DNA of 49,423 nucleotides. It comes from a virus. Position numbers and translations under genes: made by a program. The stretch lies in IMG/VR virus record IMGVR_UViG_3300030117_005015, positions 1 through 49,423 of that record; one strand, given 5' to 3'. The notes under the pieces were generated by a model. It had not been told where the DNA came from, did not search any database, and worked only from the letters and a program-made list of their open reading frames with translations. Below are positions 2,138 through 48,549 of the stretch, in pieces. How positions within the stretch are numbered: position 1 is the stretch's first letter; each line of letters begins with the position of its first letter.

Positions 2138-3538
2138 TTAAGGTGTTGAATCTATTTCTGTAACTGAAGTATTTGCTATTCCTAAATATGTAGACCAATC
2201 GTCTTCTATAACTAAAGTTATAAAAATTCTTTCATTACTTCCTGTTATATCTGTATCTGACTGTATTGATATTACGAACATATCTGTAGAATCCCAATGT
2301 TTAGCAGAGCTAAATGGAACATGCCACAAGTGTTGATCGTCCGCATTATTAACCGTAACGTTTACTGTTTCTACAGAAGAATAACCACCAGAATAAGAAG
2401 TTCCAACAGTATTTGTTTCTACACCAAAGGTAACCGTAGCATCGCCAGTATGTGTATTAAACGCCTCAGCTCTCCATGTGAGTGATACTAATCTACCATC
2501 ACAAACAGCCACTTCTTGATTTTCCTCTCTAGTTAATACTGTTTGTTCATCTTGAGATTTTAATGGTAAATAATATTTAGTTGTACCTATATCTGCTCTA
2601 AAAGATGTATTTACTATTCTATAGTGTTTACCCGTTTGAACTGTGGTATGAACTGAATTTATTCTATCATCTATAGCCGCCGAAGTCATTATACTAGTAT
2701 CATTGTCAACAAATGATTCACCATGAGCTTGAACAGCTGTTAAATTTATGCTATCAAAACCCAACGTTGTTATACCAGTAACGCTTCCACCATCTACTGT
2801 AACAGTGCCATCTAATAATATATTATTTCCACTAGCCGGTTCTAATTTTATTTGACCATTAGCATCTAGTGTTATATCTCCATCGGCTTCTACCTCAAAA
2901 TTAGCAGCAGCGGCAGCATCATCTACTGTTGTGAGTAAAGTATCCCCATCAGCACCAACGGTTATTCTAAACTTATCATCATCATTACCACTTTTATACC
3001 ACTCATAAATACCGGAGTAGTTTTTGTGAAATATATTACCATCAACAGAAAAAGTCAAATGAGCCGCATGTGAATCATCATCTATAGTAGTAATAGTAGT
3101 AGCTCCGTGAGTTGTTGTGCCTATTGTAAACCTATCACCGCTATCTTGATTTGATAAAATTGATAATAAAGAAGTGTCTGTTTCCCCAGCATCATTACTG
3201 AATGTTATATAAGTTAGCGCCGTCATTGTATCGGAACCAGTAGCCGCTAAAAGCCCACCTGCACTTCCGTTTGACATAAAATCAGAAACATCAACTCCAA
3301 TTGTAGCAGCATAAGCTCCACCAGTTGCACCCGAAACACTTGTTAAATCTACAGCTGTGCCAGCGGTTAAAGTAATACCACTTATATCACCAGTTTCCGA
3401 TGACATTACAATTTTTTGATTTGAATCTAAACCTAAATACCCACCACTAACTATTGTTCCAGTACGTATATTTTCTAAATATACATCACCACGAAACCTA
3501 GATACAAGGTCATATATATGTTGACCTATCCACTTCAT
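2138..3538 (-). CDS. Tail fibre-like or phage structural protein
   Basis: 466 aa, starting MKWIGQHIYDLVSRFRGDVY. The N-terminal 35 residues are helical and basic, followed by long stretches rich in Gly, Thr, Asp, Ala and Ser with repeating 'DG(D/N)..L' turns, for example VEADGDITLDANGQIKLEPA around residue 230. That is the usual look of trimeric beta fibre shafts. The C-terminal 170 residues are more globular (HYRIVNTSFRADIGTTKYYL onward) and could be a head domain. The ATG overlaps the stop of the upstream adhesin gene by one base. Neighbours (adhesin upstream, tandem small beta proteins downstream) fit a host-contact cluster. The family is inferred from composition and position. Confidence 0.75.
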   Translation of the reverse strand: MKWIGQHIYDLVSRFRGDVYLENIRTGTIVSGGYLGLDSNQKIVMSSETGDISGITLTAGTAVDLTSVSGATGGAYAATIGVDVSDFMSNGSAGGLLAATGSDTMTALTYITFSNDAGETDTSLLSILSNQDSGDRFTIGTTTHGATTITTIDDDSHAAHLTFSVDGNIFHKNYSGIYEWYKSGNDDDKFRITVGADGDTLLTTVDDAAAAANFEVEADGDITLDANGQIKLEPASGNNILLDGTVTVDGGSVTGITTLGFDSINLTAVQAHGESFVDNDTSIMTSAAIDDRINSVHTTVQTGKHYRIVNTSFRADIGTTKYYLPLKSQDEQTVLTREENQEVAVCDGRLVSLTWRAEAFNTHTGDATVTFGVETNTVGTSYSGGYSSVETVNVTVNNADDQHLWHVPFSSAKHWDSTDMFVISIQSDTDITGSNERIFITLVIEDDWSTYLGIANTSVTEIDSTP

Positions 3539-6480
3539 TACTTAATTAATTTTCTTTCTACAGTTCCGTCTTCATAAAGAAATAATAACACTCTATTTTT
3601 TTCAATTTTAGCTGGTCTACCTAATAAATCAGTAACCGAAACTAATTTAGCAATACGTTTTGGTATAGGACCGACCCAAGTTCCTTCACAATAATCATAT
3701 GTTAATTGACATATATTATCCCATTCGTTTTCACAACAGTAATCATCTACTGAAATCACCCAAGCGTAACAAGGATCATTTAACCAATAGGGATTACCTG
3801 CACCAGTAATGCAACCAGCATCGTAAAGACAAGAAACGCTATCATGAACATTAGCGGAAATATCATAATTATAAGCCGATTGATCCATACAGCCCTCAAT
3901 AATTGCGATACAACTTTCGTTATCTGTGTTTGCAAGTGAATCATAATTAAGCGCAGTGGAGTCCATACATCCATATATAAACGGGATACAACTAAAGTCT
4001 TCAACATTTGCCAAAGCATTATAATTAAGCATAGAAGGATCCGTACAACCATATATATAAGGAATACAACTATTATTGTCAGCATTTGCTAAAGGATTAT
4101 AATTAAACATCGTTGAATCAGTACAACCAAATATATATGGAATACACGAACCATCATCAGTATTAGCACTTGCATCAAAGTTAAACATAGTAGGATCGGT
4201 ACATCCATATATAAACGGCACGCAACTACCATCATCAGTATTAGCGTTTGGATTATAGTTAAATGCTAATGGCTGCATACAACCAAGTATTACAGCTACA
4301 CACCCACCGTTATCTATATTTGCTATAGAATCATAATTAAATGCCGTTGAATCTGTACAACCCCATATAGCTTCGGTTACACATGAACCATCATCTACAC
4401 CTGCTACATATCCTTGGGTATAATATTCTAAAAATGATGAATTAGTACATCCAGGCATATAATAACAAGTGTCAGGTGTATTAGCTGATATATCATAATT
4501 ATAAGCAGTTGAATCTGTACATCCATGTACTACAGGCTCGCAATAGTTACCACAAGATGGTATAGCTGTATATATTTCCCAGAATGGATGACTAAAAGGC
4601 TGTAGAGCGCCTTGGCCATTATTTGCAAAAGGATTTGTTCCTTCTGATAACAATGTATCACCGTAAGCATTTATTAATAAAAAAGAATTCTGCATAGTCT
4701 GAAACTCTACTTCTTGTGGTGGTTGTTGAGCTCCAGGAACTTCAAAATAATAAACTAAAACAGGCTCATCTGTTTCTAAATCTATTGGAAACGATTGTGA
4801 ATAAGAACCAGGCCCCATTGTGTATGTCCAAGTATTAGACCCTTGAGTAATACCTAAATAAGAATTACCCCATCCATCCGCAGCATCATCTTCTATTATT
4901 AAAGTATAATCACATACTGGTACTAAATCCATTATAGTTGCAGTAGGATCATAATTAAACATAGTGTCATCTGTACACCCATATATATGCAAATTAATAC
5001 ATGTACTATCGTCTACGTTCGCTAATGGATTATATTCTTGATAGTTTGGATCAGTACAACCAAGTATTGTGTCTTGTCCAGCGCAAGTAGTTCCATTTTG
5101 AACTGTAGAATATGCTACGTATCCAAAGTTAACGCCCACTGTATTTTGACTACCATCTAACCAAGTTCCCGATGTAAGATACGTTATAGTGTCTCCAGCA
5201 CAATCATATATAACAACTTCCCCTGCTGAACCAGGCGTTCCGTTCCCCATTATTCCATCGCCATACGTATCATTTAATATAAGTTCAAACCCTGATTGCT
5301 GAACACAAAACTCGTAAGTATAAGTCTGCCCTATGTCACCATAATCATACGTTCCTTGTGGAGCATCTCCTACGGCTTGGCCTCCACTCATCATTGTCCA
5401 AGAAGTTTCACCTGGCCAATTATCCAATCTAATCGTCATTGTTACTTGATACTCATTGTCTGGATCACATACAGCACCAGCACAACTCCCATCATCAATG
5501 TTAGCAAATGGATTGTATGATGTTTGAGTTGAATCAGTACAACCCGGTATACAAGGCGACGGAGTATAAGTTATTGTATCTGACAAGGTTCCATCCGCAT
5601 ATTCTAACACTATATAGTGCTCAACACTCCAGTTAGGAGGCATTTGTCCGCTTCCGGCGTTTACAGCAAAGTTGTTATATCCATTAGCCGCTGGCCAATA
5701 ACCCATGTAAGAATAAATATGATTATTTTCATTACCATAATGTATTTCAATTACATCGCAAGTAGACGTTGTAGTATCAGACCACCATTCAAATGTTATT
5801 CCAGTTTGAGTTCCCCAGCATTGATCATAAGCATTAGCGTTTATAAAACCTCCACAAGGGGGATAAGTACAAGATCCATCAGGATAAATAGCGTTAGCAT
5901 CATAGTTTAAAGCTACAGAATCCATACAACCCATAGCTGGATTAAATGGATCACTAATCATTATGTCATCTATAGCTATATCACTAGTATATAAATCACC
6001 AGTTACAGCTGTAAATTGTATTTTAAATGAATCAGTTGATGATATTGGATAATAAGCAAAAAACCATTCATCACCATAATTACCAGATTTAACGTCTAAA
6101 ACAGTATATCCATTATTATCTATTACCCCTATTTCTAAATCACCCATCTCCATACCATACATATGATACCAAAACGATAACACTTTACCAGGTGTTGCTG
6201 AAATGTCAAATGTTGGTGTGTATGTTATAAGTGTTTTGTTAGGATAATTAGGATAAGAAGACTCTACATAGTAATAAGTACCACCACCTGTTGTATGGTC
6301 TCCAGAAGGCCCGGTGTTATAACTATAAGTTGGTCCTTGCCAAACACTCCAATCTCCGTCATCAAATTGATCTTGTTCTAATGGTATATAGTTTTCAAAG
6401 TCATATATCCAAGGAAAAGTACTTACTTGTCCAAAATTAAATAATGGTAGTAATAATAATATTAATAATAGTTTTTTCAT
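3538..6480 (-). CDS. Secreted adhesin-like protein with T9SS-type C-terminal sorting domain
   Basis: 980 aa with four parts. Residues 1-18 are a Sec signal peptide (MKKLLLILLLLPLFNFGQ). Residues about 25-180 resemble a MAM/jelly-roll domain (DFENY at the start, FWYHMYGMEMGDLEIGV, IAIDDIMISD at the end). From about 183 to 885 lie 13 Cys-bounded repeats of the form GC(T/M)D...NY...A...DDGSC, nine of them dense after residue 640. Then comes a CC...WD..C module (DDYCCENEWDNICQLTYDYC), and the last 35 residues (SVTDLLGRPAKIEKN and LLFLYEDGTVERK) match the type A C-terminal sorting domain of the Bacteroidota type IX secretion system. All these modules are typical of flavobacterial secreted proteins. 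The gene starts with an ATGA overlap on the preceding 57-aa gene. Either the host exports it during infection, or the domains have been reused as a virion adhesin. Acquisition from a host is inferred. Confidence 0.85.
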   Translation of the reverse strand: MKKLLLILLLLPLFNFGQVSTFPWIYDFENYIPLEQDQFDDGDWSVWQGPTYSYNTGPSGDHTTGGGTYYYVESSYPNYPNKTLITYTPTFDISATPGKVLSFWYHMYGMEMGDLEIGVIDNNGYTVLDVKSGNYGDEWFFAYYPISSTDSFKIQFTAVTGDLYTSDIAIDDIMISDPFNPAMGCMDSVALNYDANAIYPDGSCTYPPCGGFINANAYDQCWGTQTGITFEWWSDTTTSTCDVIEIHYGNENNHIYSYMGYWPAANGYNNFAVNAGSGQMPPNWSVEHYIVLEYADGTLSDTITYTPSPCIPGCTDSTQTSYNPFANIDDGSCAGAVCDPDNEYQVTMTIRLDNWPGETSWTMMSGGQAVGDAPQGTYDYGDIGQTYTYEFCVQQSGFELILNDTYGDGIMGNGTPGSAGEVVIYDCAGDTITYLTSGTWLDGSQNTVGVNFGYVAYSTVQNGTTCAGQDTILGCTDPNYQEYNPLANVDDSTCINLHIYGCTDDTMFNYDPTATIMDLVPVCDYTLIIEDDAADGWGNSYLGITQGSNTWTYTMGPGSYSQSFPIDLETDEPVLVYYFEVPGAQQPPQEVEFQTMQNSFLLINAYGDTLLSEGTNPFANNGQGALQPFSHPFWEIYTAIPSCGNYCEPVVHGCTDSTAYNYDISANTPDTCYYMPGCTNSSFLEYYTQGYVAGVDDGSCVTEAIWGCTDSTAFNYDSIANIDNGGCVAVILGCMQPLAFNYNPNANTDDGSCVPFIYGCTDPTMFNFDASANTDDGSCIPYIFGCTDSTMFNYNPLANADNNSCIPYIYGCTDPSMLNYNALANVEDFSCIPFIYGCMDSTALNYDSLANTDNESCIAIIEGCMDQSAYNYDISANVHDSVSCLYDAGCITGAGNPYWLNDPCYAWVISVDDYCCENEWDNICQLTYDYCEGTWVGPIPKRIAKLVSVTDLLGRPAKIEKNRVLLFLYEDGTVERKLIK
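3828..4560 (-). repeat. Coding array of GC-D-NY-A-DDGSC repeats
   Basis: Within the adhesin gene, nine consecutive units of about 25-37 codons encode GC(T/M)(D/Q)..x.NY....A..D...C. Clear examples are YGCTDPTMFNFDASANTDDG, FGCTDSTMFNYNPLANADNN and YGCMDSTALNYDSLANTDNE. DNA similarity between units is visible, with recurring 'ccatatataaa' and 'gtacaacc' segments on the + strand, so the array probably expands and contracts by recombination. Four more diverged units lie upstream at about 5930-4930. The paired Cys suggests a disulfide per unit and the Asp-rich turn suggests metal binding; both are inference. Confidence 0.85.
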
Positions 6481-6653: not shown

Positions 6654-7022
6654 TTATCTTTTACCGCCATCATATTTAACAGCGTGTCCTTCTTTTATTA
6701 ATAATTCATTTACACTTTCTAACGTTAGTTTCTCTTGTCCGTCTACCATATCCACAAATAACTCACCTAAACATCTTCCATATTTTCCAACACCATGAGA
6801 TTGTAATGTTATTTCTTTTGCTCCTTCTAGCAATTGCTTAACTCTATCTTTAGCTGCTAGTCCCCTAGCTTTCTCTTCTAAGTCTCTAGTTCTGGATTCT
6901 GGAGTATTAATCCCCATAAATCTAATCCTTTTTTTAGTAGATATATCAAATCCTAAATCTATATTAGCATCAATAGTATCACCATCAATAACTCTGTCTA
7001 ATTTTATTTTATAAGTATACAT
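6654..7022 (-). CDS. Staphylococcal nuclease-like (SNase/TNase) endonuclease
   Basis: 122 aa with the complete SNase core. VIDGDTIDA (Asp13, Asp15) supplies the calcium site, RIRFMGINTPE supplies Arg34 and Glu42, and GKYGRCLGEL supplies Arg83, equivalent to the Asp21, Arg35, Glu43 and Arg87 set in the staphylococcal enzyme. The C-terminal helix (SVNELLIKEGHAVKYDG) also fits. Family members cleave DNA or RNA with calcium. There is no signal peptide, so it should act in the cytoplasm or travel with the virion. Its place between the thioredoxin-like gene and the adhesin, away from replication genes, leaves the role open: host DNA degradation, nucleotide recycling, or injection-associated cleavage. 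Confidence 0.9.
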   Translation of the reverse strand: MYTYKIKLDRVIDGDTIDANIDLGFDISTKKRIRFMGINTPESRTRDLEEKARGLAAKDRVKQLLEGAKEITLQSHGVGKYGRCLGELFVDMVDGQEKLTLESVNELLIKEGHAVKYDGGKR

Positions 7023-7716: not shown

Positions 7717-8796
7717 TTAAAAAATTGTATAGTTAACTCCTAGTTTAAAATCGTACCATTCTCTATTCCAGTACTTGTTATATTTTCCTTCTACAAAATA
7801 TCCTAATTGTTTATTTACTTTTACACCATATATTAACCCTCCTGAATAATCATACCATTGACCATCAACGTAGTTGTGATAACTAAATTCACTACCATCA
7901 TCGTAATGATATGGCATTAAGCTTCCCCAAGCATGCAACCAAGTTTTTTTAGAATATTTATAATAATCAAAACCTATAACTAAAGAATGCTGTATTGTTT
8001 TCTTTAATTCGTTTCTTTTCTTTTCTGTGTAATCTGACAATACTTGTGGTATAACAACAGCCTCCCAAACCTCAGCACTTGTAGCAACTAATTCTCCAGC
8101 TGGATTATAATATTCACTGTTATACACATCCACCGTATAACCTTCTTGTAGGGCTAAATAAGTATAATGTATATTACCATTATCAAGCATCCATTCATCA
8201 AGAGCATTATAACCATATGGCTCTGCTAGTCTATGTGTTAATCCAATATTCCAAGATAAGTTACTATTTTTACGATGTCTATATCTCTCTGATGCTTCAA
8301 AATATTTTACGTCAGCAAAACCATCTTCTAAATATTCCAACTTTAAAGCAAAGAAGTTTACACAAAGCTCATCTTCACAACCTTCATCAGAACTAAATCT
8401 AATAAAATGATGTTGATCCATATAATTTACTCCTTCTTGCCTCTTGTAATCTACTTCAAATAAATATTCAACCCCTCTAACTTTACCTACAGTAGCCGCA
8501 TCACTGTAATTAGATTCCGTTCCATCATAAAAAGTCTGAGCTTTATTTTCATATCCAAATCTTGCTATCTTACGTAAACCTATAGTAAAATTATAATCAT
8601 AAGGAGTTGAAATAGTTTGAGTAGACAAGCCGTTATCTACTGAAAACACATCAACATCAGACAATGATGTTCCACCGTTTACAGCGGCATAAAATGTAGA
8701 AAACTTTAACAAGTCTTGAACATCTTCTTTTTTAAATGTTTGTGCTATTACTATATTATGTATAAATAATAGTAATAATATTAGTTTTTTCATCAT
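7717..8796 (-). CDS. Outer-membrane beta-barrel-like protein with signal peptide
   Basis: 359 aa. A Sec signal peptide (MMKKLILLLLFIHNIVIAQ) is followed by many amphipathic strands rich in Tyr/Trp/Phe, for example VEYLFEVDYKR, FFALKLEYLE, SLVIGFDYYKYSKKTWLHAW, GLIYGVKVNKQLGYFVEGKY. The protein ends DFKLGVNYTIF, with a terminal aromatic residue as in the beta-signal recognised by the BAM complex. It is probably inserted in the host outer membrane. In a phage this could block receptors (superinfection exclusion), alter permeability or help lysis; the sequence does not decide. It follows the giant ejection-type gene after a 43-nt gap that holds a repeated motif (8801-8810). Confidence 0.8.
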   Translation of the reverse strand: MMKKLILLLLFIHNIVIAQTFKKEDVQDLLKFSTFYAAVNGGTSLSDVDVFSVDNGLSTQTISTPYDYNFTIGLRKIARFGYENKAQTFYDGTESNYSDAATVGKVRGVEYLFEVDYKRQEGVNYMDQHHFIRFSSDEGCEDELCVNFFALKLEYLEDGFADVKYFEASERYRHRKNSNLSWNIGLTHRLAEPYGYNALDEWMLDNGNIHYTYLALQEGYTVDVYNSEYYNPAGELVATSAEVWEAVVIPQVLSDYTEKKRNELKKTIQHSLVIGFDYYKYSKKTWLHAWGSLMPYHYDDGSEFSYHNYVDGQWYDYSGGLIYGVKVNKQLGYFVEGKYNKYWNREWYDFKLGVNYTIF

Positions 8797-8839: not shown

Positions 8840-11800
8840 TTATCTTCTTACACTAGACCTTGTAGACTTTCTTTTTCTATTGGTTTTTGGTTTAATATGT
8901 TTTTCTAAATAATCTTTAATTATCTTTTTATTTTGATTTTTATCTTGTAATTCTATAATTTTTTTAGCTCTACTAGTTTTGTAATGTAACTTACTTATTT
9001 CCTCCTCTTTCACACCTAATTCTATTAGTAATGCAATTTGTTGATCTTTCTTTAAATCATATATTAATTTTTCAGTTTGCTTTGTAGAATCATCAAAAAT
9101 TTGTTGTTTAAATTCTTCAGCTTCTTTTTTCTCTATTTCTTTTAACTTTTTCTTTTGTTCTTTTTCAATGTCTTTTTGTTTTTGCTTCTCTTGTTTTATT
9201 TCAGTTTTTGTAGCTTCTATATCTGCATCTTTAATACCTAAATCCCAAGTATTCCAACCTAAAAGCAAAGCAGCTCGCTGCCAAAACGCATTACTTGAAT
9301 CCATAGCGTTATCAATATTTAACATTTTATTTGCTAATCTACCAAGTGGTATATTTGTAAAACCTTCTATCACATTACCTACAGCACTCCAAACGGGATT
9401 ATCTAACGTTAAACCTCGTTTTTTAAATACTTCTCTATTATATTTTCTTGATTGTATAGATCTATATATCTTTCCAACTTTAGAGCTTAAAGGTGGAGAG
9501 AAACTTAAAAGTTGTAATATTGTATACGTATGATCTGATTTTGTTAAAAACTCTTCATCAGTATCTTTAGCATCTTGTTTTTGATATTCTATCACTGCGT
9601 TTTTTGTAGCACTAACAGCTCTACCACCAAAACCTATAGTTACTAACCAAGTATCTATCATACTATTTAATGCTCTATCTGTTCTTTTGTCAAACTCTTC
9701 TTCTTCATCAATCATAGCCCACATAGCTGATTGTAAAGCATGGAAAACAACATTCATAATAACTCCATAGTAAACTATTTTAGACACATGAGTTTTAGTA
9801 TCCCCTCTTTTGTTTATAATATCTCTAGCGGCTTTATTCATTATTCTACCAGCTTGCATTGGATAGTTAGCAAATGCTAACACCAATCTACCTAACGGGC
9901 TTTTTTGTTGTTGAGATAACATGTCTGGTCTAGCTGATTGTTGTGACACTTCTGTTGTTTCTTGGAAATCTAAGAATGCTTGTTTTTCAGCTTGCTCTAA
10001 AGTTATACCTTCTTTAACTAAAGCTTTTATTTTATTTCTATAATATGTAGCCCCACCACTAGAAATAGCAAAGCTATCAGCAACTTGTGTTGGTAAAAAA
10101 CCTTTTTGTAATAACCACGCTACAGCAGCTTTTGCTTTGTTTTGACTACCAGCAACAGCGGCAGATAATTCAGCTTCATTAATACCTCTTCTATTACCAG
10201 CTCTTCTTTGTTTTAAATAATCAGAGTTAAAAATTGTTGAAAAATCTTTCCAGTATTGTTTTTGATTAGCAAAAACCGTGGCAGCGTTTAAAGGGTTATT
10301 AAATGACCAATTTATATAGTTAGTCATAGATATAGTTTGTAATAATGCAGATCTCATGTTAAAGAACATAATTGCACCAACAGCATTGTTAACCCAATTC
10401 ATGTACATATTTACAAGTCTATTAGAACCTTGCTTTCTGTTTCTACCAGTCTCCATAGTAAACAACATATCTTCTAAGGCTTCTCTAAAGTTTTTACCAT
10501 AAATAGCTTGTACTTTGTTTAGATTATCTTTAGAAAATATTTCATTTTTATTTTCTATAAATTCATTTAAAAATTTAGACCTAACGTCACCAATAGCTCC
10601 ATCACTTAATAAATCAGAATTTATATTTTCAACTAACCAATATTCACCTGGCTCTGAATAACCTTCTTTTCTTTTAGATATTTTACCAACTTGATCTGCA
10701 AACTGCTTTAATTCTGTGTCAGTTTTTACAAAATCAGATAACATTTTAGTATCTCTTTTTGATAAACCAGGTATTTCAAAACCTGCTTTTTGCCAAAGAT
10801 AAACTCTAACAGCTTGATCAACAGTAAATTCTACACCTTCATAACCATCGAATGATTTAAGTTTTTTTGTTAAATCTTTTTTAACACTTTTATTTTCTTT
10901 TAATAAATTTTTATAATTTTCAGAAGCTATTTGTCTTGAAGCGTTTAATTCGTCAATACCTCTTGCGAAAGGATCTATTAAAGCTTTTTTGAAAAACTTC
11001 ATTTGTTGTTCTCCTTGTTTACCTTTACCTAAAAAGTTATATAATAAACCAACAAAATCTTGAGCAGAAGCTGGTATAATAGATTTATACTTTGACTTGT
11101 TACCTCTTAACTTAGCTTGAGCATCAGAAAAAGTTATAACAGCTTGAACACCAGTTGTTTGCTGTATTATTTTATTAAATTCTTTATTTAAATCTTTTGA
11201 AAAATCAACTTTAGCTTGTTGTACTTTTGATTTAACATCAAATTGATCTAGTACATTTTTTACAGCTTGTACGTTTTGTAGAGCATCGTCTGCAAAATAA
11301 AAGTCATTAAAACCTTCACCGACTTTGTCAGCAACCCAAAGTGCTTTTGCCTCACTCGTACTGTTGGCTAAACCAGTAATGTTTTCTATTGATATATTTA
11401 AACCATTTGCTTGTAAAAAATCATGTATTGCTTGTGCTGATTCAGGTGGTCTAGCTGTTAAAACAAACATATTTTTAGAACCAAACTTTTTTTGTAGCTT
11501 TAATGCTTTTTCAAATAAAGGTGCTTTTTTACCTTCAACAACTTTTGAAAACTCTGAAAAATCAAACTCATAACCTTTAGCAGCTAACTCTTCGTATGTG
11601 GCGGCATACTGTTCTGCATTTAGCTTACCTTTAGTACCGTCAGGTCTTGTAAAATTAATCATAGACTTTGTTGTAGCCAATGTATCGTCAAAATCTAGTA
11701 TTGTAATACCTTTTGGTTTATTTTTATTTGATCTTGAGAACAACACAGCGTCATCAATAATTCTTTCACTAGTAAAATTATCTTTTGAAAATTTAGTTAC

Positions 11801-14800
11801 AACTTTTTCTACATCTTTTTCTTTAAAAAAGTTTACGTTTTGTTTTTCAAAAGTTCTTGAATCTATTTGCGTCTCAACAATAAAAACAACTCGTCTCATG
11901 CCTCCAGCTCTTTTATCAGCTGCCATCCTAATAGTTAAAGGTATAGGCACGCCAAGTTGTTCAAAGTTAGCAACTTGATCACTTATATTTAAAGGATCTG
12001 CATCACCCATTGTATAAGTACCTGATCTACCCGTAGTAATATAAAAAGAAGGTATAGGTTTGTTTATATAATCGTATGATATAAAATCAGTTTTAACCCA
12101 TTCGTATGAAGTAGCTAGTGCATCTAATTTGTTTTTCTTAATATCTTGCCAAGCTTCTTCTGTTATTAAAGTTTGCTCTTGTTTAGGACCAGAGCTTAAA
12201 ACAAAGTTCTTAACACCGTATTTATCTTTTAATAATTCTTTTATTTGCTTTAAAGCAGGTATTGATTGTTTAACTAAAGCATCAATTTTTTCAGGATTTA
12301 AACTAGTTTTATTACCTGCTACAGTGTATTCAGTACCTTTTGATTCAATTATTTTGTCAATGTCTATATATATATTTCTTTTAGGTCCTTTTGACTTATC
12401 GGCTTTTATTTCTGAACCAAAAGGCATACCGTCAACTTCTAACTGTACATCTGGATTTTCACCTTCTGCAACTTCTTCTACCAATAGCTTTATGTTTGGA
12501 TTACTTGCAATAGTATTTTTAAAATTATTTATACCGTGTTGTTCTATGTAATAAGAGTTAGGTTTTGATTTTAAACCTTCTTTGTTTCTTAAAGACCTTA
12601 ATTCTTTTATAGCATTTTTAATTTCTGGTATTTTATATAATCCGCTATAATCGTACGCGTTATCTGTTATTAAATGTTTTAATGCAACTCTCCAAGATAT
12701 ATCTTTAGTGTCTATACTTAGTAATATATCATTTAAACCGTTTTTTTCTGCTCTAATAATAAAATTATTTGCTGTTTTACTACTATATTCTTTATCATTT
12801 TTCTTGCTAAACTTAACGTCAGGGTCTCTACCTATATTAGCACCTAAAGTTTCTATATCATCTTTAGCTAAAGTTTCACCTTTAAGTTCAGCTATTTCTG
12901 TTCTTTTTTGTATTATTTCTGTTTCTTGAGCTACTTCCATTGTAGCATCAAAAGATAATGCACCAGCCATGTTTTTTGCTAACGTATCTTTTCTTGTACC
13001 TCTTTTACCAGATCTTTGTCCTGTAACAGGATTAAAAGCAGGTATATCAAAAAAGCCCATAAATTCTTCTTCAGTAGGCATTTTTTTCTTATATAAATTA
13101 ACAGACTTATCTTTATCGTAAGATCTTATAGCTGCTGGAGGTAATAGTTGTTGGTCTACAGCGTTTTCTACTTCACTTCTTGTAGTAAGTTTTTTTATAA
13201 AAGTTGTAAAAATCCTATCTTTAACATCAACATTACGTTCTATTTGTACTAAATCAGATGTAAATAAAGCGTTTATTATTGGCTCTCTAAACTTTCTTAA
13301 ATTACTAGCATATGTTTTAGTACCTAAAAAGTTTTTAATTGTTTTAAACAAATAACTATTAGCTTGATCTCTTAATTTTATTTGTATATTTTTAGCAGAA
13401 GTATTACTTTCATATGCTCTTAATAAAGATTTACGCGCAGCATCTTTTATTTGATTATATAATTTACCATTAGTTTCTATACCTAGTTGTTTTCTAAACT
13501 GCGATTGTTTTTGACCTTGTTCTTTTATTTGTGCTTTTCTAGCTTGAGCAGCTGGTGATAAATCTTCTGTTTCAAAAGAAGTTTCTACCTCAGTATCTTT
13601 TATGTCAAAAGTTGTTTCACCTTCTTTAGTTCTTTTAGCAGCATCTATTCTAGTTGTTTTACCTTCTTTTTTAGCGGCTATTGCAAGAGCTTTGTCTGCG
13701 TCTAATTTTGCAAAACTAATATCAGACATTATACGCTCACCAATTGTTACACCTTCTTTTACATCTGTTTTTCTAGTAGCTTGTGGATTATAATTAAATA
13801 ATCTTTGAGAAGCTTTTTCTATAACTTGTTCTGTTTTTTCAGGACCCATCCTAAGACCTTTAATATAGTTGTTTATAGGTCCATTTTCATTGTTTATAGA
13901 ATCAAATATTTGACCAAACTCTGTACTACGTCTAAACTCGTTTTGTGTGTATTCTTTACCTTCTTGTTGTAATTTATTTTTTAAGTTATTTTCTATTTCA
14001 TTTACAGCTGTAACAGCTTTTGATCTTGAAAACTTTGTTGTAGCTTCTGTACGTTGAGCACCTGTAACTAAATCACCTTCTGCACCTTTAGCAGCTACAT
14101 TAATTATAGATTTACTTACATAATCTTTTTTAATACTTTTAGCATAATCTTTTATAAAGTTAAATACATCTCTACCGGTATTAAATTTAATCTTTTTTAA
14201 ACCTATTCTTTGTAAAGTTTGTCTTACAAAATCACCTATTTTAGTAAAAAAAGAATCATTAAAAGTTAATGTACCATCAACAATTGATTCAGCCATAATA
14301 GTCATAGTTTCTTCACCAAACTCACTAACACGTTGTCCAGTTTTAGGATCTATATATGCACTCATTCTATCCACAAACTCTTGAGATACACCACCATACT
14401 TTTCATTAACATAGTCTGTTACTGCATTACCAAAAGCATCTTGAGTAACTTGATCGTTTCTAAGAGTTCTTGATAAAATTTTATGAAAAAACTCGTGTGC
14501 AGCTACACCTTCTTTATAATTATCTTTATTTATTATAATATCATAACTACCATCAGGTCTATCTATAATATAACCAAACTGTTTATCAGCTGTTTTAAAA
14601 GCTTCTAATCTATTTTTAGTATCTTCTAAGTTTTGTTTAGCTGTTGTATTTTCAGTTGTACCAGACTCTGTTTCTGCTACACGTGATTTATAACCTTCAA
14701 CTTCGGCTTCAAGCAAAGAAATTATTTCAGCTTGACTTTCAGCTATATCTTCATTACTTAGTTCTACTATATCACCTTCATCACCAGTTTTATCTTGAAC

Positions 14801-17800
14801 AGCATCCATTTGTTTTTTAACTGTAGCTGTTTCTTTATTTATAGCAGTGTTTAAAACGGCTTTAGCAGATTCATCTAGTTCAACAATACTAGCATCAGTT
14901 TCTACAGGTAAAGGTTCTATTTTTTTAGTTGGTATTTTACCTGGTACTACCTCAGCATATTTATTTAATATCTCACTTATTTCATTGTTTATATTTTGTA
15001 ACTCTTGTTCAATACCTGGTACTGCACTTGCACCTGTTTTTTTAGAATCTTGTTCTGCTTTAACTCTTCTTTTTTCAAGTTCTACTAAAGAACTTCTATC
15101 TTCAGCATTAGTAATTCTATCACTTATTTCAGAATCTATTTTTATACTATCAATTTTATCTTGTACATAGTTTCCATAAGCTTCAGCTCTATTTGAAGCT
15201 TCTTGTGCGTATGCGTTAATAGCGTCTTCACTAATTTTTTTAATAGAAACAGGCGCGTCTACGTTAAGATCTGTATCTATGCCAGAATCAAAAGTGGTCT
15301 GTGATTTTATTTCATATTTAAAATTTTCAACATCTTGTAAAGTTTTTAAACCATCAACATAGTCAATAAAAGATTGCTCACTTACAACTGTACCATCAAT
15401 AGTAAGTTCTACTTTTGCAAGTACAGGTGGTAAATAATAGTGCTTGTTATTTTCAGCTTTTATTATACCACCAGTTTGAGGTGTGTACGGCATGTAACCG
15501 TTTTTAGGTATTAAATTACCAGCTGGATCTACAAACTGGTCATTACCTTGATAGCCATTAGGATCTGCATAGACTTTTATACCCGTAACATTACCTTGAC
15601 CATCTAATAAATTACCTTCTTTATCAATATTTGGTTGTGGTCTGGTGTATTTATAACCAGTTTCCATATTACCAGTTTTAACAAACTCTTCTGTAAAACG
15701 AGTTTGATCTCTTAAATCTACTGGTTTAACTTCTTTTAAACCTGTAGTACCACTATCTACATCGCTTTTAATATCGTTTTTGACACTATTATATGCAATT
15801 ATCGTTTCTGTTGCTAAACTAAATACAGCTGGAGAAAAACCTTCAAGAACTATATCAACTTCATCAAATTTTAAATTTGCTGTTTTAAATTTTGTGTATT
15901 CACCAGTCATACCTCCAACAACATCAGTTGTAACGTTATAAGGTATAGTTAAAGTTGTACCAACTATCTTAGAAGTATTAGTTGTTTTACCTACAGTTTT
16001 TATTATAGCAGATGAACCTTTTATACCAAGCATCGATGTTATAAGCTCTGTTGCAGCTACAGAAGCACCACCTAATCTAGCTCTTCTTTTTATTTCTGCT
16101 CTAAACTCATCATTTTCTAACAAACGTCTTATATTATTAGGCGTCATATCATCACCTATAGCTTCTAGCTCTTCTTGAAGTATTTGAGTAAACGTAGCTA
16201 TAGTCTCCATGTTATAGTTCATGGAAGTCATACCAGCAACGAAACCACCACCAAGAGCACCATAACCGGTATACCAAGTAGCACCCGCACCAGCAAGAGC
16301 AGAACCAGACGCATCTTTTAAAGCTTCTTCATTAAACATACCTACTGCACTAGAAACAAAAGCCTGACCAAAACCTTTAACACCTTCGTCTTTAATAGCG
16401 TTCATAGTAGACATAAACCAGTTTTCACCATCATCTCTGTACTCGTTATATGATTCAGACCAAGATATTAAAGCCTTCATGTCAGCAGAAGCAGTTTGTA
16501 CTTCTTCTATAGCTTCTATCATTTTCTGTAAATCTTTGTCAGATATGTCATCTATATTTTCAAGATCGCCAAATATAGGATCTACGGCTCTATACAAATC
16601 AGCTTGAGCTTGCCCAGCGTCAACAGCTGCGTCAAATGCACTTGGCCCATTGTAAGTATCAACAGGGTTTAACATCCACTCCTGTAGTCTTTTCATTTCT
16701 TTTACACCTGCACGACCTTCTAAACCAGTTTCAAACTTTTGCTGCTCACCCCCAACCCAAGCTCCTATTTTTGTATCGTATCTAAACGGTGCAGTTACAA
16801 TAATCCAATCATCAAACGTGTTTTCAATTAAACCTGATTTTACTGTACCAAAAATACCAGTATCTACTTTTAATGGAATAATATAACCAGGTTCAAACTT
16901 AAACCCAAAATAAGGATTACCTTTGTATTTTTTGTTATTAGCCCAACTGTTTAAAAGTCTTATGGCTTCTTTTTCATCCTTTTGATGAAAATGATAACCA
17001 TTATAACGCTCACCTTTTTTAGCCATTGGTGGATCTTTCATAATATACTCTTCAAAAGCATATCTTTCTGGTCCTAAAATAGCAAGCCTTTCTTCTTGTT
17101 CTTCAATTTTTTTAACTCGACCATCAAGTAAATTTACAACTATATTTGAAGCTTGTTGATATTGATTATAAGATAAGTTGTTGTTGTAAAACTCTCTTTC
17201 AAATGAGTTTGCTGGATTTTGCAAAACATTATTAAAATCACTTGGCATATCACCAAGACTTATACTAAATGTATTAGAAGGATTCATGCCAAAATCATTT
17301 TCATCTCTTCCTTTGTAATTATATAAAAGTTCTGGTATATCATTAAACGATATTACAGCCGGTGGTGCTTTTTCTTTTTTCTTTTCAGTGTTGTCAACAG
17401 TAAGTTCTTTATCAAGAAGTAATTCACCAACGTTTCTGTAAAGTTGCTCGCTTTCTTTAAGAGGTTTAAATATACTATTAATTAAACCACTAGCACCATC
17501 AAAAATACCACCTACTGTTTTTTCTATACCATATTGCACTACACTTTTACCAAAAGCTTCATCACCTGGTTTTACATCACCAACAAATAATTTTCTAATT
17601 GCGTCTGTTTTAAAAAGATTTTCATCAACGTTTTCTATACTATTAAAATATTCATCTGAAAAATTAAAATCTTCTTTAAATTTTTCATTTATAATACTAT
17701 AGTTACCTTTATATTCAGGGTTGTTTGCCGTGTACACGTACTCTTCTAAAGTTGCAGGATCAAATTCTTTTAAATCAGGAAATAATCTATTTATTTCATC

Positions 17801-17911
17801 CCACATATATCCACCTTCTGCAGTACGAAAACGAATATTATTGGCTACCAACACATATTGTTGTAGCGCAGAAGCTATAACGTTTAATTTATCTAAGCTT
17901 GGTTCGTTCAT
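8840..17911 (-). CDS. Giant polyvalent ejection (internal virion) protein with zincin and HAD domains
   Basis: 3023 aa, the largest gene here. About residues 535-560 form a Gly-rich hydrophobic stretch (GALGGGFVAG). A zincin motif HEFFH lies at 1139-1143. A HAD-type phosphatase domain runs from about 2068 to 2200: DFDDTLATT at 2073-2081, FVLTARPPES and DFYFADDALQNV. Two hydrophobic helical regions lie at about 2504-2533 (AVGAIMFFNMRSALLQTIS) and 2709-2732 (IVYYGVIMNVVFHALQSAM), and the C-terminus (2897-3020) is a basic coiled coil. Size, membrane-active stretches and position after two smaller internal-virion candidates match T7 gp16-like or crAss-type injected proteins, and the mixed enzymatic content fits 'polyvalent' phage proteins delivered with the DNA. 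The frame is intact. Individual functions are unproven. Confidence 0.8.
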   Translation of the reverse strand: MNEPSLDKLNVIASALQQYVLVANNIRFRTAEGGYMWDEINRLFPDLKEFDPATLEEYVYTANNPEYKGNYSIINEKFKEDFNFSDEYFNSIENVDENLFKTDAIRKLFVGDVKPGDEAFGKSVVQYGIEKTVGGIFDGASGLINSIFKPLKESEQLYRNVGELLLDKELTVDNTEKKKEKAPPAVISFNDIPELLYNYKGRDENDFGMNPSNTFSISLGDMPSDFNNVLQNPANSFEREFYNNNLSYNQYQQASNIVVNLLDGRVKKIEEQEERLAILGPERYAFEEYIMKDPPMAKKGERYNGYHFHQKDEKEAIRLLNSWANNKKYKGNPYFGFKFEPGYIIPLKVDTGIFGTVKSGLIENTFDDWIIVTAPFRYDTKIGAWVGGEQQKFETGLEGRAGVKEMKRLQEWMLNPVDTYNGPSAFDAAVDAGQAQADLYRAVDPIFGDLENIDDISDKDLQKMIEAIEEVQTASADMKALISWSESYNEYRDDGENWFMSTMNAIKDEGVKGFGQAFVSSAVGMFNEEALKDASGSALAGAGATWYTGYGALGGGFVAGMTSMNYNMETIATFTQILQEELEAIGDDMTPNNIRRLLENDEFRAEIKRRARLGGASVAATELITSMLGIKGSSAIIKTVGKTTNTSKIVGTTLTIPYNVTTDVVGGMTGEYTKFKTANLKFDEVDIVLEGFSPAVFSLATETIIAYNSVKNDIKSDVDSGTTGLKEVKPVDLRDQTRFTEEFVKTGNMETGYKYTRPQPNIDKEGNLLDGQGNVTGIKVYADPNGYQGNDQFVDPAGNLIPKNGYMPYTPQTGGIIKAENNKHYYLPPVLAKVELTIDGTVVSEQSFIDYVDGLKTLQDVENFKYEIKSQTTFDSGIDTDLNVDAPVSIKKISEDAINAYAQEASNRAEAYGNYVQDKIDSIKIDSEISDRITNAEDRSSLVELEKRRVKAEQDSKKTGASAVPGIEQELQNINNEISEILNKYAEVVPGKIPTKKIEPLPVETDASIVELDESAKAVLNTAINKETATVKKQMDAVQDKTGDEGDIVELSNEDIAESQAEIISLLEAEVEGYKSRVAETESGTTENTTAKQNLEDTKNRLEAFKTADKQFGYIIDRPDGSYDIIINKDNYKEGVAAHEFFHKILSRTLRNDQVTQDAFGNAVTDYVNEKYGGVSQEFVDRMSAYIDPKTGQRVSEFGEETMTIMAESIVDGTLTFNDSFFTKIGDFVRQTLQRIGLKKIKFNTGRDVFNFIKDYAKSIKKDYVSKSIINVAAKGAEGDLVTGAQRTEATTKFSRSKAVTAVNEIENNLKNKLQQEGKEYTQNEFRRSTEFGQIFDSINNENGPINNYIKGLRMGPEKTEQVIEKASQRLFNYNPQATRKTDVKEGVTIGERIMSDISFAKLDADKALAIAAKKEGKTTRIDAAKRTKEGETTFDIKDTEVETSFETEDLSPAAQARKAQIKEQGQKQSQFRKQLGIETNGKLYNQIKDAARKSLLRAYESNTSAKNIQIKLRDQANSYLFKTIKNFLGTKTYASNLRKFREPIINALFTSDLVQIERNVDVKDRIFTTFIKKLTTRSEVENAVDQQLLPPAAIRSYDKDKSVNLYKKKMPTEEEFMGFFDIPAFNPVTGQRSGKRGTRKDTLAKNMAGALSFDATMEVAQETEIIQKRTEIAELKGETLAKDDIETLGANIGRDPDVKFSKKNDKEYSSKTANNFIIRAEKNGLNDILLSIDTKDISWRVALKHLITDNAYDYSGLYKIPEIKNAIKELRSLRNKEGLKSKPNSYYIEQHGINNFKNTIASNPNIKLLVEEVAEGENPDVQLEVDGMPFGSEIKADKSKGPKRNIYIDIDKIIESKGTEYTVAGNKTSLNPEKIDALVKQSIPALKQIKELLKDKYGVKNFVLSSGPKQEQTLITEEAWQDIKKNKLDALATSYEWVKTDFISYDYINKPIPSFYITTGRSGTYTMGDADPLNISDQVANFEQLGVPIPLTIRMAADKRAGGMRRVVFIVETQIDSRTFEKQNVNFFKEKDVEKVVTKFSKDNFTSERIIDDAVLFSRSNKNKPKGITILDFDDTLATTKSMINFTRPDGTKGKLNAEQYAATYEELAAKGYEFDFSEFSKVVEGKKAPLFEKALKLQKKFGSKNMFVLTARPPESAQAIHDFLQANGLNISIENITGLANSTSEAKALWVADKVGEGFNDFYFADDALQNVQAVKNVLDQFDVKSKVQQAKVDFSKDLNKEFNKIIQQTTGVQAVITFSDAQAKLRGNKSKYKSIIPASAQDFVGLLYNFLGKGKQGEQQMKFFKKALIDPFARGIDELNASRQIASENYKNLLKENKSVKKDLTKKLKSFDGYEGVEFTVDQAVRVYLWQKAGFEIPGLSKRDTKMLSDFVKTDTELKQFADQVGKISKRKEGYSEPGEYWLVENINSDLLSDGAIGDVRSKFLNEFIENKNEIFSKDNLNKVQAIYGKNFREALEDMLFTMETGRNRKQGSNRLVNMYMNWVNNAVGAIMFFNMRSALLQTISMTNYINWSFNNPLNAATVFANQKQYWKDFSTIFNSDYLKQRRAGNRRGINEAELSAAVAGSQNKAKAAVAWLLQKGFLPTQVADSFAISSGGATYYRNKIKALVKEGITLEQAEKQAFLDFQETTEVSQQSARPDMLSQQQKSPLGRLVLAFANYPMQAGRIMNKAARDIINKRGDTKTHVSKIVYYGVIMNVVFHALQSAMWAMIDEEEEFDKRTDRALNSMIDTWLVTIGFGGRAVSATKNAVIEYQKQDAKDTDEEFLTKSDHTYTILQLLSFSPPLSSKVGKIYRSIQSRKYNREVFKKRGLTLDNPVWSAVGNVIEGFTNIPLGRLANKMLNIDNAMDSSNAFWQRAALLLGWNTWDLGIKDADIEATKTEIKQEKQKQKDIEKEQKKKLKEIEKKEAEEFKQQIFDDSTKQTEKLIYDLKKDQQIALLIELGVKEEEISKLHYKTSRAKKIIELQDKNQNKKIIKDYLEKHIKPKTNRKRKSTRSSVRR

Positions 17912-17916
17912 TTAAT

Positions 17917-19536
17917 TTATCTTCCTTGTTTAAACTTATAATCAGTATCTATATACTGAGCATAATATTTTAATTGTTTAGCTAACTCATATTTAGTAAA
18001 CACATGTTTACCTCTTTGTTGTAAATCTTCTTCAGTATACGGAGCATATCCAGGACCTTCTCTTCTGTATAACTTATAAGTACCATCGCTTTGTAGTAAA
18101 TATTCTTCTTGTTGTATAACAACTAATCTTTCACCTCTTTCAATAGCTTTTGCAGCTATATATTCTAATTGTTTATCTTTACGTGAAGGTAGAGGTACAT
18201 CTTTACCAAACACTACGCCCATACCCTTGTTTGGATTAGCATCGTTTTGCCAGCCATCAGCGTGTTTAAGTTGGTATTTTTCTTCTATTATATCTTTAAA
18301 ATAACCCATTAAAAGTTTTTTAGATCTTTCAAAGTCAAAATTTTCATCGTCAATTTTTGTTAAAACATCAACCATCATATTGTAATTTTTTCTAAAAGCA
18401 TCTGGATCTGCTGCTCTTTCAAGATCCTCAACGTCTATAACACCGTCTTCACCAAACGCCTCTATCATTTCTTTAAATAACAATTGAAAAGAAGCATCCA
18501 TTAAATCTAACTGTATACCATAGTTACCACTTAGTTTTAGTTCAGTTAAAAATGAAGGTCTACCTAAAGTCATTTTTACGTTGTCACCGCCCATACCTAC
18601 TCTTCTTAAACCTAAACTTCTAAAATCTTCTGGTTTTTGTATTATAAGGTCAAGCTGACCTAAAACTTCTTCTTCATTAAAATTTAACATGGCACCTGAC
18701 TTACCAGCTTCAAAAGCCTCTTGCTGCATATCATTAACAAGAGATATAATTTGTCTATCTTTGTTTAACAGCGCAGCTGGAAAGTTTTCCCTCATTTGAT
18801 CAATAGTATACGCAGCTTCACCGTATTGGTATTCTTCATAAACAGGTGCTTCTTGTAAATCTATTGCACCTATATTTAATAATTCAGTATTAAATCCACT
18901 TAATTGTTGAGTTGAAGGTGTTACAGTTCTAGTACCTGTTAAAAAGTTTCTAGCATAAAAAGTTAGTTCACCATTTATAAAAGCAACTTGTACATCATCA
19001 TCATTATCTATATCAACACCCATCATTTTGTTTTGAGCGGCCATAACCGTAGGATCTAAAGCACCTTCAATCCAAGAATCTCTTTGTTCATATAACAAAT
19101 CAAAAGTTTGTCTTGCTTTGTAAGCTTGATTTGTTATTGAAACAAGCTCAGCTTCTAAACGTGTTCTAGCTCTTTCGTTTTCTATAGTATCATCTCTACC
19201 ATAAGTATTAACAGCCATGTACTCTTCTTGTAATCTTCTTATTTCTCTGTCTAAAGCATCTACAACTTTTTGACTCATTGTTTCGCCGTTTACAGTAAGT
19301 TTTTCATGTTGCTTTTGTAATGTTTTTTGAAAAGCATTTAACTGTTTTCTTTTACCTGCGTCTATTATTTGTTCTTGTTTTATATAATCTTGAAATAAAT
19401 TATCTGTTAATTTATAATAGCTTTCCATAGATTTAACATTACCTTCAAATAAAGGTGATAAATCTCTTATATTTATCTTTGATCTTGATAAACTTTCTTT
19501 TAACGATAAATTTACTAATGTACTATCTGCTGGCAT
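17917..19536 (-). CDS. Putative internal virion (ejection) protein, gp15-like position
   Basis: 539 aa, mostly helical and acidic. It starts MPADSTLVNLSLKESLSRSK and has long Gln/Glu-rich helices around residues 70-160 (RLQEEYMAVN, ARTRLEAELVSITNQAYKAR). A central region has RSLGLRRVGMGGDNVKMTLG, and an acidic calcium-like stretch DIDNDDDVQ lies near 175. No signal peptide or membrane span is seen. It lies 5 nt upstream of the 3023-aa gene and 10 nt after a small Gln/Ala-rich protein, the same order as the three ejection proteins gp14-gp15-gp16 in T7-like phages. Assignment rests on order and composition. Confidence 0.65.
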   Translation of the reverse strand: MPADSTLVNLSLKESLSRSKINIRDLSPLFEGNVKSMESYYKLTDNLFQDYIKQEQIIDAGKRKQLNAFQKTLQKQHEKLTVNGETMSQKVVDALDREIRRLQEEYMAVNTYGRDDTIENERARTRLEAELVSITNQAYKARQTFDLLYEQRDSWIEGALDPTVMAAQNKMMGVDIDNDDDVQVAFINGELTFYARNFLTGTRTVTPSTQQLSGFNTELLNIGAIDLQEAPVYEEYQYGEAAYTIDQMRENFPAALLNKDRQIISLVNDMQQEAFEAGKSGAMLNFNEEEVLGQLDLIIQKPEDFRSLGLRRVGMGGDNVKMTLGRPSFLTELKLSGNYGIQLDLMDASFQLLFKEMIEAFGEDGVIDVEDLERAADPDAFRKNYNMMVDVLTKIDDENFDFERSKKLLMGYFKDIIEEKYQLKHADGWQNDANPNKGMGVVFGKDVPLPSRKDKQLEYIAAKAIERGERLVVIQQEEYLLQSDGTYKLYRREGPGYAPYTEEDLQQRGKHVFTKYELAKQLKYYAQYIDTDYKFKQGR

Positions 19537-19546
19537 AATTTATATT

Positions 19547-20311
19547 TTATCTTTGGAACATTTGTTTTATTAAGTCCGCTAAATACGTAGAACCTTGTTT
19601 AACACCTTGACCTATCTTGTAGCCTGGTGTACCTTCGCTATAATCAAACATACCTGCTTCTTGAGCTTGAAAACCTGTACTTACAACTCCTTGTATTCCT
19701 GATATTAAAGCTTGTTGTTGTGCTATTTGAGCGTTCATTTGATTTGCTTGTGCTTGAGCTAAAGCTGCGTTAGCACCTGTGGCTTCACCCATTTGCATAC
19801 CAAGCAAAGTAGCTTGTCTATCTCTTTTTGCTTGTTCAATACCTGCCTCACCCGTTAACTCAAGTCTTTGTGCTTGAGCAGCACCTTGAGCAGCTAGCCT
19901 TTGATTAGCAGCCTCTTGTTGACCAATACCTGCTGATATTCTTTGTATTGACAAAGCGCCTTGATTAGCTAGTGTTTGAGCTAAACCAGAAATACCACTA
20001 GCACCTGCCGCAGAACGTAAGTTAGCCATTACATCAGCCATTTGCTGAGAAGTTTGTTGAGCTTGAAACTGAGCAGCTTGTTGGTTAACAGTTAAGTCTT
20101 CATATACATTTTCCATATCTTTATAAGGATTTCTAAACTGCATGCTTCTATATTTTTCTTTTTCAACATCTAAAAGCTCTTGCTGTCTAATTCTTTCATT
20201 TTTAGCATCTCTATATTGTTCATTAGCCAAAGCTCTGTTTTCTCTAGCAGCACTCATACCCATAAGACCTACAGTAGCAGAAACACCTACTGATATTGCA
20301 CCCCAACTCAT
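19547..20311 (-). CDS. Putative internal virion protein, gp14-like
   Basis: 254 aa. The N-terminus is hydrophobic and Gly/Ala/Ser-rich (WGAISVGVSATVGLMGMSAA, about residues 3-22). It is followed by a charged helix and then a long Ala/Gln-rich helical region (QFQAQQTSQQMADVMANLRS, ANAALAQAQANQMNAQIAQQ) typical of small ejection proteins that line the portal channel or penetrate the envelope. The C-terminal piece ends STYLADLIKQMFQR. It stands first of three probable ejection genes. No enzymatic motif is present. The family match is by composition and gene order. Confidence 0.7.
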   Translation of the reverse strand: MSWGAISVGVSATVGLMGMSAARENRALANEQYRDAKNERIRQQELLDVEKEKYRSMQFRNPYKDMENVYEDLTVNQQAAQFQAQQTSQQMADVMANLRSAAGASGISGLAQTLANQGALSIQRISAGIGQQEAANQRLAAQGAAQAQRLELTGEAGIEQAKRDRQATLLGMQMGEATGANAALAQAQANQMNAQIAQQQALISGIQGVVSTGFQAQEAGMFDYSEGTPGYKIGQGVKQGSTYLADLIKQMFQR

Positions 20312-43071: not shown

Positions 43072-43506
43072 TTAAATATATGCCTCGTCGTTACCGTTGT
43101 TAGCGTCGTTTTCCCATGGAAAGTCATGATCACCTGCTTGTTTCCAAACGCCATCAACTAATATTGAGTCAACACCATTAATATCTTTTCTTATATACTT
43201 ATTGCCATTATACATAACATAATTGTCTGTATATGCTAATTTACCTATCTTCATGTCAGTTGCGTGCCTCATTTCGTGGTTTACAACCATAGCTTCTTCT
43301 TGGCTATTAGGTTCTATTTGATCACTAATAAATATAGTACCATCCATATTAGCCTCACCCATAATACCTTCATCTAAAGGCACTCTAATTACTGGAGTAC
43401 CAGGTACAGATGCATCGTCACCAGCTTGCTGGCCAAAACGCATTTTATTTCTTATCTGTCCGTTTACAGCATAATTACCTCTTTCTGATCCTAGTTTAAA
43501 TCCCAT
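43072..43506 (-). CDS. Small zincin-type metallopeptidase candidate
   Basis: 144 aa. N-terminal tag MGFKLGSERGNYAVNG, shared in its first five residues with another gene. A central strand-helix region contains AMVVNHEMRHATDMKIGKL, where His77-Glu78-x-x-His81 is the zinc-binding HExxH motif. Downstream, the C-terminus has WENDANNGNDEAYI, with acidic residues that could supply the third zinc ligand. No signal peptide is visible. Candidate roles are a prohead maturation protease, given its place upstream of the head genes, or a cell-wall/host-protein protease. The short size suggests a minimal catalytic domain. Confidence 0.7.
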   Translation of the reverse strand: MGFKLGSERGNYAVNGQIRNKMRFGQQAGDDASVPGTPVIRVPLDEGIMGEANMDGTIFISDQIEPNSQEEAMVVNHEMRHATDMKIGKLAYTDNYVMYNGNKYIRKDINGVDSILVDGVWKQAGDHDFPWENDANNGNDEAYI

Positions 43507-45403: not shown

Positions 45404-45445
45404 ACGTTTTAAGTTTAAAGTTTAAGGTCTAAGGTTTAGGTCTAA
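45404..45445. repeat. Degenerate heptamer repeats after groES
   Basis: On the + strand five imperfect 7-nt units follow each other (ACGTTTT, AAGTTTA, AAGTTTA, AGGTCTA, AGGTTTA), then GGTCTAA. The array covers the groES stop codon and the gap to the next gene. It could be slippage product or a binding site; no hairpin or promoter consensus is evident. Confidence 0.5.
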
Positions 45446-48548: not shown

Positions 48549-48549
48549 A

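Follow-up and report, generated by a model that had tools for sequence, protein, structure and literature searches.

The window, a virus record from IMG/VR of 49,423 bases analysed here at its full length, contains on its minus strand an open reading frame of more than 9 kb that an earlier note on this DNA had described without giving its strand. The frame is confirmed, beginning with ATG and running without internal stops to give a product of 3023 amino acids, and it is the last of a triad of genes:

19547..20311, minus strand: 254-aa protein, first of the triad, profile-homologous to Cellulophaga and Flavobacterium phage virion proteins
17917..19536, minus strand: 539-aa protein, middle of the triad
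8840..17911, minus strand: giant polyvalent-type protein, 3023 aa (open reading frame translation; 122 non-redundant relatives)

The portal and TerL of the window fall in PHROG families 6547 and 6681, and TerL identities are 63.5% with an uncultured podovirus, 45% with Flavobacterium elemo phages, and 32–39% with Cellulophaga and Tenacibaculum phages, among which Calle and Gundel have podoviral virions (PMC8776804). The source is probably a marine podovirus-like phage related to flavobacterial phages. Elsewhere on the minus strand of the window are GroES and GroEL (45442-47251), both of which are also present in Manatee Spring podovirus and the elemo phages; a 122-aa staphylococcal-nuclease-like protein (6654-7022; DGDT...GINTPE, recognized by eye) downstream of the structural block; and two proteins containing GCTDxxxxNYxxxAxxDDGSC-type repeats (3538-6480 and 47625-48575), one of which has a signal peptide-like start.

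The triad of 254, 539, and 3023 aa parallels that of Cellulophaga phage phi18:3 (227, 499, and 1935 aa), all three members of which are annotated from experimental MS/MS proteomics. The 254-aa protein gives profile matches to Calle gp003 (2.7e-12), elemo gp20 (1.2e-9), and phi19:3 gp126 (1.8e-6). For the greater part of their length, the Baltivirus giants of phi13:2, phi18:3, and phi19:3 are 93–98% identical at the DNA level. A 508-aa alignment joins the phi19:3 giant to elemo gp18 (7.5e-8), and the zincin region of elemo gp18 aligns weakly with that of the window protein (E 0.004). The virion-detected counterpart phi18:3 gp123 (represented by phi19:3 gp129) has no detectable similarity to the 3023-aa protein and no HExxH. 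A virion location is well supported for the gene slot, and for the 3023-aa protein itself it is likely from gene position and the slot counterparts. Among relatives checked in detail, the gene for the giant sits behind one for a 480–540-aa protein and mostly ahead of a conserved gene for a 359-aa protein; in the window the latter (7717-8796, minus strand) has a signal peptide-like start, and it is ~87–92% identical in most of the relatives checked, with divergent neighbours.

Direct searches with the whole 3023-aa protein against Pfam, PHROG, and PDB gave nothing usable (a Cas_APE2256 Pfam match lay under the cut-off and was judged to be chance), and tblastn with aa 1048–3023 found no relative among GenBank phages at E 0.01. 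Four productive scans of IMG/VR yielded 122 non-redundant relatives, the window counted in, of which 111 are complete and range from 2189 to 4311 aa. At L080:4283-12577 the giant gene is split into several frames, through decay of this copy or an error in assembly. The parts of the window protein are as follows:

14792..17911, minus strand: N-terminal region, aa 1–1040, hypervariable (75% identity in L001 and no relationship in most others; BLAST links 3.9% of pairs)
16097..16234, minus strand: Gly-rich, mildly hydrophobic segment, aa ~560–605
14039..14734, minus strand: zincin metallopeptidase domain, aa 1060–1291 (by profile, found in 100 giants)
12812..14014, minus strand: helical module MID, aa 1300–1700 (by profile, found in 33 giants)
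11777..12811, minus strand: predicted PD-(D/E)XK nuclease-type module, aa 1701–2045
11198..11716, minus strand: HAD phosphatase domain, aa 2066–2238, motifs I–IV intact
9182..11101, minus strand: C-terminal module, aa 2271–2910, constant, all-helical, with a structure resembling that of phage polyvalent proteins in their C-terminal part
8843..9151, minus strand: basic helical tail, aa 2921–3023

As judged by sequence comparison, homology among the relatives is modular: the HAD domain and C-terminal helical module are constant, the zincin is near-universal but divergent, and the modules between are swapped. All pairs of relatives (100%) are linked by BLAST in both the C-terminal module and the HAD domain, 38% around the HExxH of the zincin, 9.6% in the slot of 350 aa before the HAD domain, and 3.9% in the first 350 aa. 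For example, L001 has 75% identity to aa 1–1293, and L002 and L007 are ~35% identical over aa 1065–1764, have no match over the next 280 aa, and are 80% identical from aa 2048 to the end. The HAD domain is missing in about 10 relatives, in which the C-terminal module is kept and starts at the same point. The combination of constant parts and a swapped middle in more than 100 related phages suggests that the giant is a delivery vehicle for interchangeable host-entering enzymes. This cassette-like mosaicism is absent from the earlier note, as are the PD-(D/E)XK module at aa 1701–2045 and an FS[KR] motif at the module junctions.

The giant had also been credited with a Gly-rich membrane stretch and with membrane-active helices near its C-terminus. 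A Gly-rich segment is indeed present near 560–605, and one glycine in this part of the chain is nearly invariant among relatives, but its membrane character was overstated, as was that of the C-terminal helices: by the Kyte-Doolittle scale, the two best 19-residue hydrophobic peaks of the protein, at 687 and 2716, score just 1.4. A basic helical tail is borne out, with 28 K/R versus 18 D/E in the last 100 aa. A profile seeded with aa 1–440 drifted to the C-terminal module (matching the window at 2345–2501) and was discarded.

No part of the giant is more conserved than its C-terminal module, which is all-helical in the AlphaFold model. This module has no meaningful Pfam match, and in BFVD it matches PolyVal-ART (ADP-ribosyltransferase), LPD (large polyvalent protein associated domain), and MuF-C phage proteins at 1e-8, and unnamed large phage proteins with E values down to 1e-13; the giant is therefore tied to the polyvalent proteins by fold and not by sequence. 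So conserved a helical module could also belong to a mainly structural protein, a DNA-ejection channel or scaffold in which enzyme-like domains are incidental or decayed, and the counterparts of the giant are annotated as structural proteins only. We consider this improbable, however, as the zincin, nuclease, and HAD catalytic residues are kept despite low overall identity. These residues are found at the following sites:

14483..14497, minus strand: HEFFH zinc site, aa 1139–1143, invariant
14309..14311, minus strand: third zinc ligand E1201 (100% in 100 rows)
12404..12451, minus strand: D1821 ... E1834-x-K1836 nuclease motif, with helix E1790 upstream (D, E, and K invariant in 18 aligned sequences)
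11681..11695, minus strand: DFDDT, HAD motif I, aa 2073–2077

The HEFFH is the sole HExxH in the 3023-aa protein. An HExxH is present in 108 of the 111 complete relatives (exactly one in 107 of them, compared with 0.8 expected by shuffling), mostly 850–1150 aa ahead of the HAD domain, and is retained even in relatives whose domain escapes the zincin profile. E1201 is invariant in 100 aligned sequences, and in an AlphaFold model (50 sequences, mean pLDDT 80) the HExxH is on helix 91–105 and E1201 on helix 153–167 of the segment, with strands 68–72 and 78–83 adjoining the zinc-site helices. Both hallmarks of a zincin, an HExxH and a third-ligand Glu on a later helix, are thus present, and the core has the minimal layout published for polyvalent-protein MPTases, in which an HExxH helix and a second helix with a Glu accompany a small sheet (PMC5512222). 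Neither Foldseek nor profile searches matched a solved zincin in PDB; the small domain sat in a mostly helical 655-aa model, and helical bundles dominate the Foldseek PDB search with the zincin plus MID. The zincin fold therefore rests on motif, secondary structure, and conservation. Outside the giant, a 144-aa protein (43072-43506, minus strand) has an HExxH of its own (NHEMRHATDM) and is a second, small putative metallopeptidase.

Used as a single-sequence query, aa 1701–2045 found no relative, nor did this segment match Pfam or PDB, and AlphaFold gave no usable model (pLDDT ~30). Comparison of the slots before the HAD domain among the relatives revealed remote relatives of the segment, and iteration added 18 more. 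D1821, E1834, and K1836 are invariant in an 18-sequence alignment with 24% mean column identity, and the helix glutamate E1790 is kept in 18 of 19 sequences in a longer alignment. PD-(D/E)XK nucleases have this pattern, E...PD-x12-E-x-K, and with the helix Glu, the PD Asp, and the E-x-K all in place we predict that aa 1701–2045 form a nuclease-type module of this class. Among the 122 relatives, 74 have an EHxxP signature within the last 480 aa ahead of the HAD domain; in these members the PD-(D/E)XK module of the window is replaced by a helical-looking module with a conserved R, E-H-x-x-P, and R-Y.

The DFDDT is likewise the sole DxDx[TV] in the protein, and HAD motifs I (D2073, D2075), II (T2152), III (K2189), and IV (D2208, D2209) are 98–100% conserved in 136 HAD rows. 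The expected DxDx[TV], T/S, K, and DD are thus accompanied by a Rossmannoid fold: AlphaFold predicts a Rossmann-like domain (pLDDT ~80–90), with Ceg4 (probability 0.95) and phosphoserine phosphatase (0.90) among the best Foldseek PDB matches. The HExxH at 1139–1143 and the DFDDT at 2073, noted earlier as a zincin and a HAD domain in one chain, are therefore real, with both catalytic sites intact and under strong selection, and from their conservation both are predicted to be enzymes. The domain-by-domain check proposed in the earlier note has recovered the HAD fold and matched the zincin layout, with no PDB zincin found by Foldseek.

Nucleotides, RNA ends, and host signals had all been suggested as targets of the HAD domain. 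Of 50 relatives, 21 have a HAD region that matches the polynucleotide kinase family phrog_415 (best 4.5e-7), and 16 have one that matches the DUF2608 family. In six relatives (L045, L075, L084, L136, L143, and L147) ~200 aa bearing a Walker-A-like motif are inserted between motifs I and II of the HAD domain, and in the four of these that were scanned this nested kinase matches AAA_33 (to 1e-16), Zeta_toxin (to 8e-12), and the polynucleotide kinase family phrog_505 (to 2e-13). The nested P-loop kinase at L084:7355-8488, for example, scores as Zeta toxin and polynucleotide kinase alike. The 3023-aa protein itself has no kinase domain, and so does not have the kinase plus HAD composition of a Pnkp. 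A kinase nested in a phosphatase suggests polynucleotide end healing, and RNA ends are the best supported of the three options. As the kinase also matches Zeta toxin, action on UDP-sugars is possible, and a strong contender, although we lean against it, is that the HAD domain acts on a small molecule (a nucleotide, signalling nucleotide, or sugar phosphate) and that the nested kinase of the relatives is a Zeta-type UDP-sugar kinase weakening the cell wall. The best PDB fold neighbours of the HAD domain, Ceg4 and phosphoserine phosphatase, include no polynucleotide phosphatase, the nested kinase matches Zeta_toxin at 1e-10 to 1e-12, one BFVD relative is named UDP-N-acetylglucosamine kinase, and Zeta kinases are known in polyvalent proteins; however, the kinase also matches AAA_33 and polynucleotide-kinase profiles, the HAD half matches phrog_415, and a kinase paired with a HAD domain makes up the two halves of an end-healing enzyme of the Pnkp type.

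Every module junction of the window protein has an FS[KR], and all five copies are near low-confidence linkers of the models:

14024..14032, minus strand: FSR 1294, junction zincin/MID
12803..12811, minus strand: FSK 1701, junction MID/nuclease
11783..11791, minus strand: FSK 2041, junction nuclease/HAD
11732..11740, minus strand: FSR 2058, junction nuclease/HAD
11195..11203, minus strand: FSK 2237, junction HAD/C-terminal module (FS[KR] at this site in 67 of 107 relatives)

Two more FSK, at 2121 and 2459, are inside the HAD domain and C-terminal module and are without the full motif context. Whole-protein counts of FS[KR] are just modestly enriched, because conserved modules add copies, and for this reason enrichment was tested in the part of the chain upstream of the HAD domain. 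Here [VIT][KR]FS[KR] is seen 43 times versus 2 expected (21-fold enriched), and the looser [VITA]xFS[KR] 123 times versus 21 expected; a reversed motif and versions with FT or FN show no enrichment in this region, nor is the loose motif enriched among 287 other ORFs on the same contigs (5 seen versus 9.8 expected). Similarity of their flanks sorts the 123 sites into 69 groups, and 55% of loose motifs are within 10 aa of a module boundary versus 6% of random positions, a comparison that is partly circular in that some boundaries were drawn near the motif. We propose that [VIT][KR]FS[KR] is a candidate processing site at which the zincin may cut.

A 2017 proposal holds that polyvalent proteins are processed by their own zincin, and cites phage P1 DdrB as a processed example (PMC5512222). 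The suggestion in the earlier note that the metallopeptidase could free the other domains matches this proposal, and the junction motif lends it indirect support. N4 vRNAP, which also has an MPTase, enters the virion unprocessed, and encapsidation requires the region (PMC5512222); the zincin therefore need not cut the chain. It could instead be an effector cutting host proteins, or needed for packaging only, such that the giant enters and acts uncut. This is a credible minority view, and it fits with the motif averaging about one per protein and being missing from many relatives, including many with a zincin. A purely structural zincin is nonetheless opposed by the invariant HExxH and E, and the motif is mostly C-terminal of the zincin, which in almost every relative precedes the modules that the motif delimits.

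Intact zincin, PD-(D/E)XK-type, and HAD sites, mosaic evolution, and a junction motif are established at the level of sequence, and we moderately favour, as the best explanation of the whole, an ejection-type polyvalent carrier with interchangeable enzymes, zincin-released modules, and a HAD domain acting on polynucleotide ends. The 3023-aa chain would be packaged in the virion and ejected with the DNA, and the zincin would then cut disordered linkers at the candidate [VIT]-x-F-S-[KR], freeing nuclease and phosphatase from the carrier. The nuclease-type module would attack nucleic acid (host DNA, a competitor, or a defence RNA); the HAD domain, as a 3′-phosphatase type, would heal or trim RNA or DNA ends early in infection; and the swapped module beside it may adapt the phage to competing genomes or to the defences of its host. 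The full generalization, that in a large and mostly uncultured marine phage family the zincin self-cleaves at F-S-[KR] and frees a swappable nuclease-type module together with a constant end-processing HAD, completed by a kinase in some, is tentative and in our estimation somewhat unlikely. The family offers a specific and testable cleavage motif for zincin self-processing and more than 100 natural variants in which the carrier is fixed and the enzyme modules are exchanged, and the cultured relatives, the Flavobacterium elemo and Cellulophaga phages, allow study of the slot protein.

In the ejection proteins gp14-gp15-gp16 of T7 and those of N4 with its vRNAP, genes are in the order small, middle, giant, and the large protein is delivered with the DNA. 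The window triad has the same gene order, and no transglycosylase or RNA polymerase domain was found in its giant. Elemo gp18 (Elemovirus, 3694 aa) and phi18:3 gp123 (1935 aa), the latter located in the virion by MS/MS, occupy the same slot behind a homologous small virion protein, and the HEIFH zincin of elemo gp18 can be aligned weakly; unlike the window giant, elemo gp18 and the Cellulophaga giants have no match to the HAD, C-terminal, or MID profiles, and that of phi19:3 is without an HExxH. The resemblance to T4-type Pnkp is in the HAD half, which matches phrog_415, and in the six relatives that add a P-loop kinase (phrog_505 in those scanned), but their kinase is nested in the HAD domain rather than fused before it, the window protein has the HAD domain only, and the setting is a virion-type giant.

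By the definition of Iyer et al. 2017 (PMC5512222), the giant is a polyvalent protein, having disparate activities (zincin, PD-(D/E)XK-type, and HAD) in one polypeptide. Pfam scans found no LPD or other polyvalent domain by sequence; such domains are common in these proteins and not defining. The main text of PMC5512222 makes no mention of a HAD domain, and in the literature searched we found no description of a constant phosphatase-carrier with a swapped middle, junction motif, and nested kinase. With the known polyvalent proteins the giant shares disparate enzyme domains in one chain, a zincin MPTase hub, a virion-gene neighbourhood, mosaic swapping, and a structurally similar C-terminal module. 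Its family differs from them in having a constant HAD domain and C-terminus, a swapped middle, and the FS[KR] junction motif, and a HAD phosphatase conserved in ~90% of the family is thereby added to the enzymes that polyvalent proteins appear to deliver.
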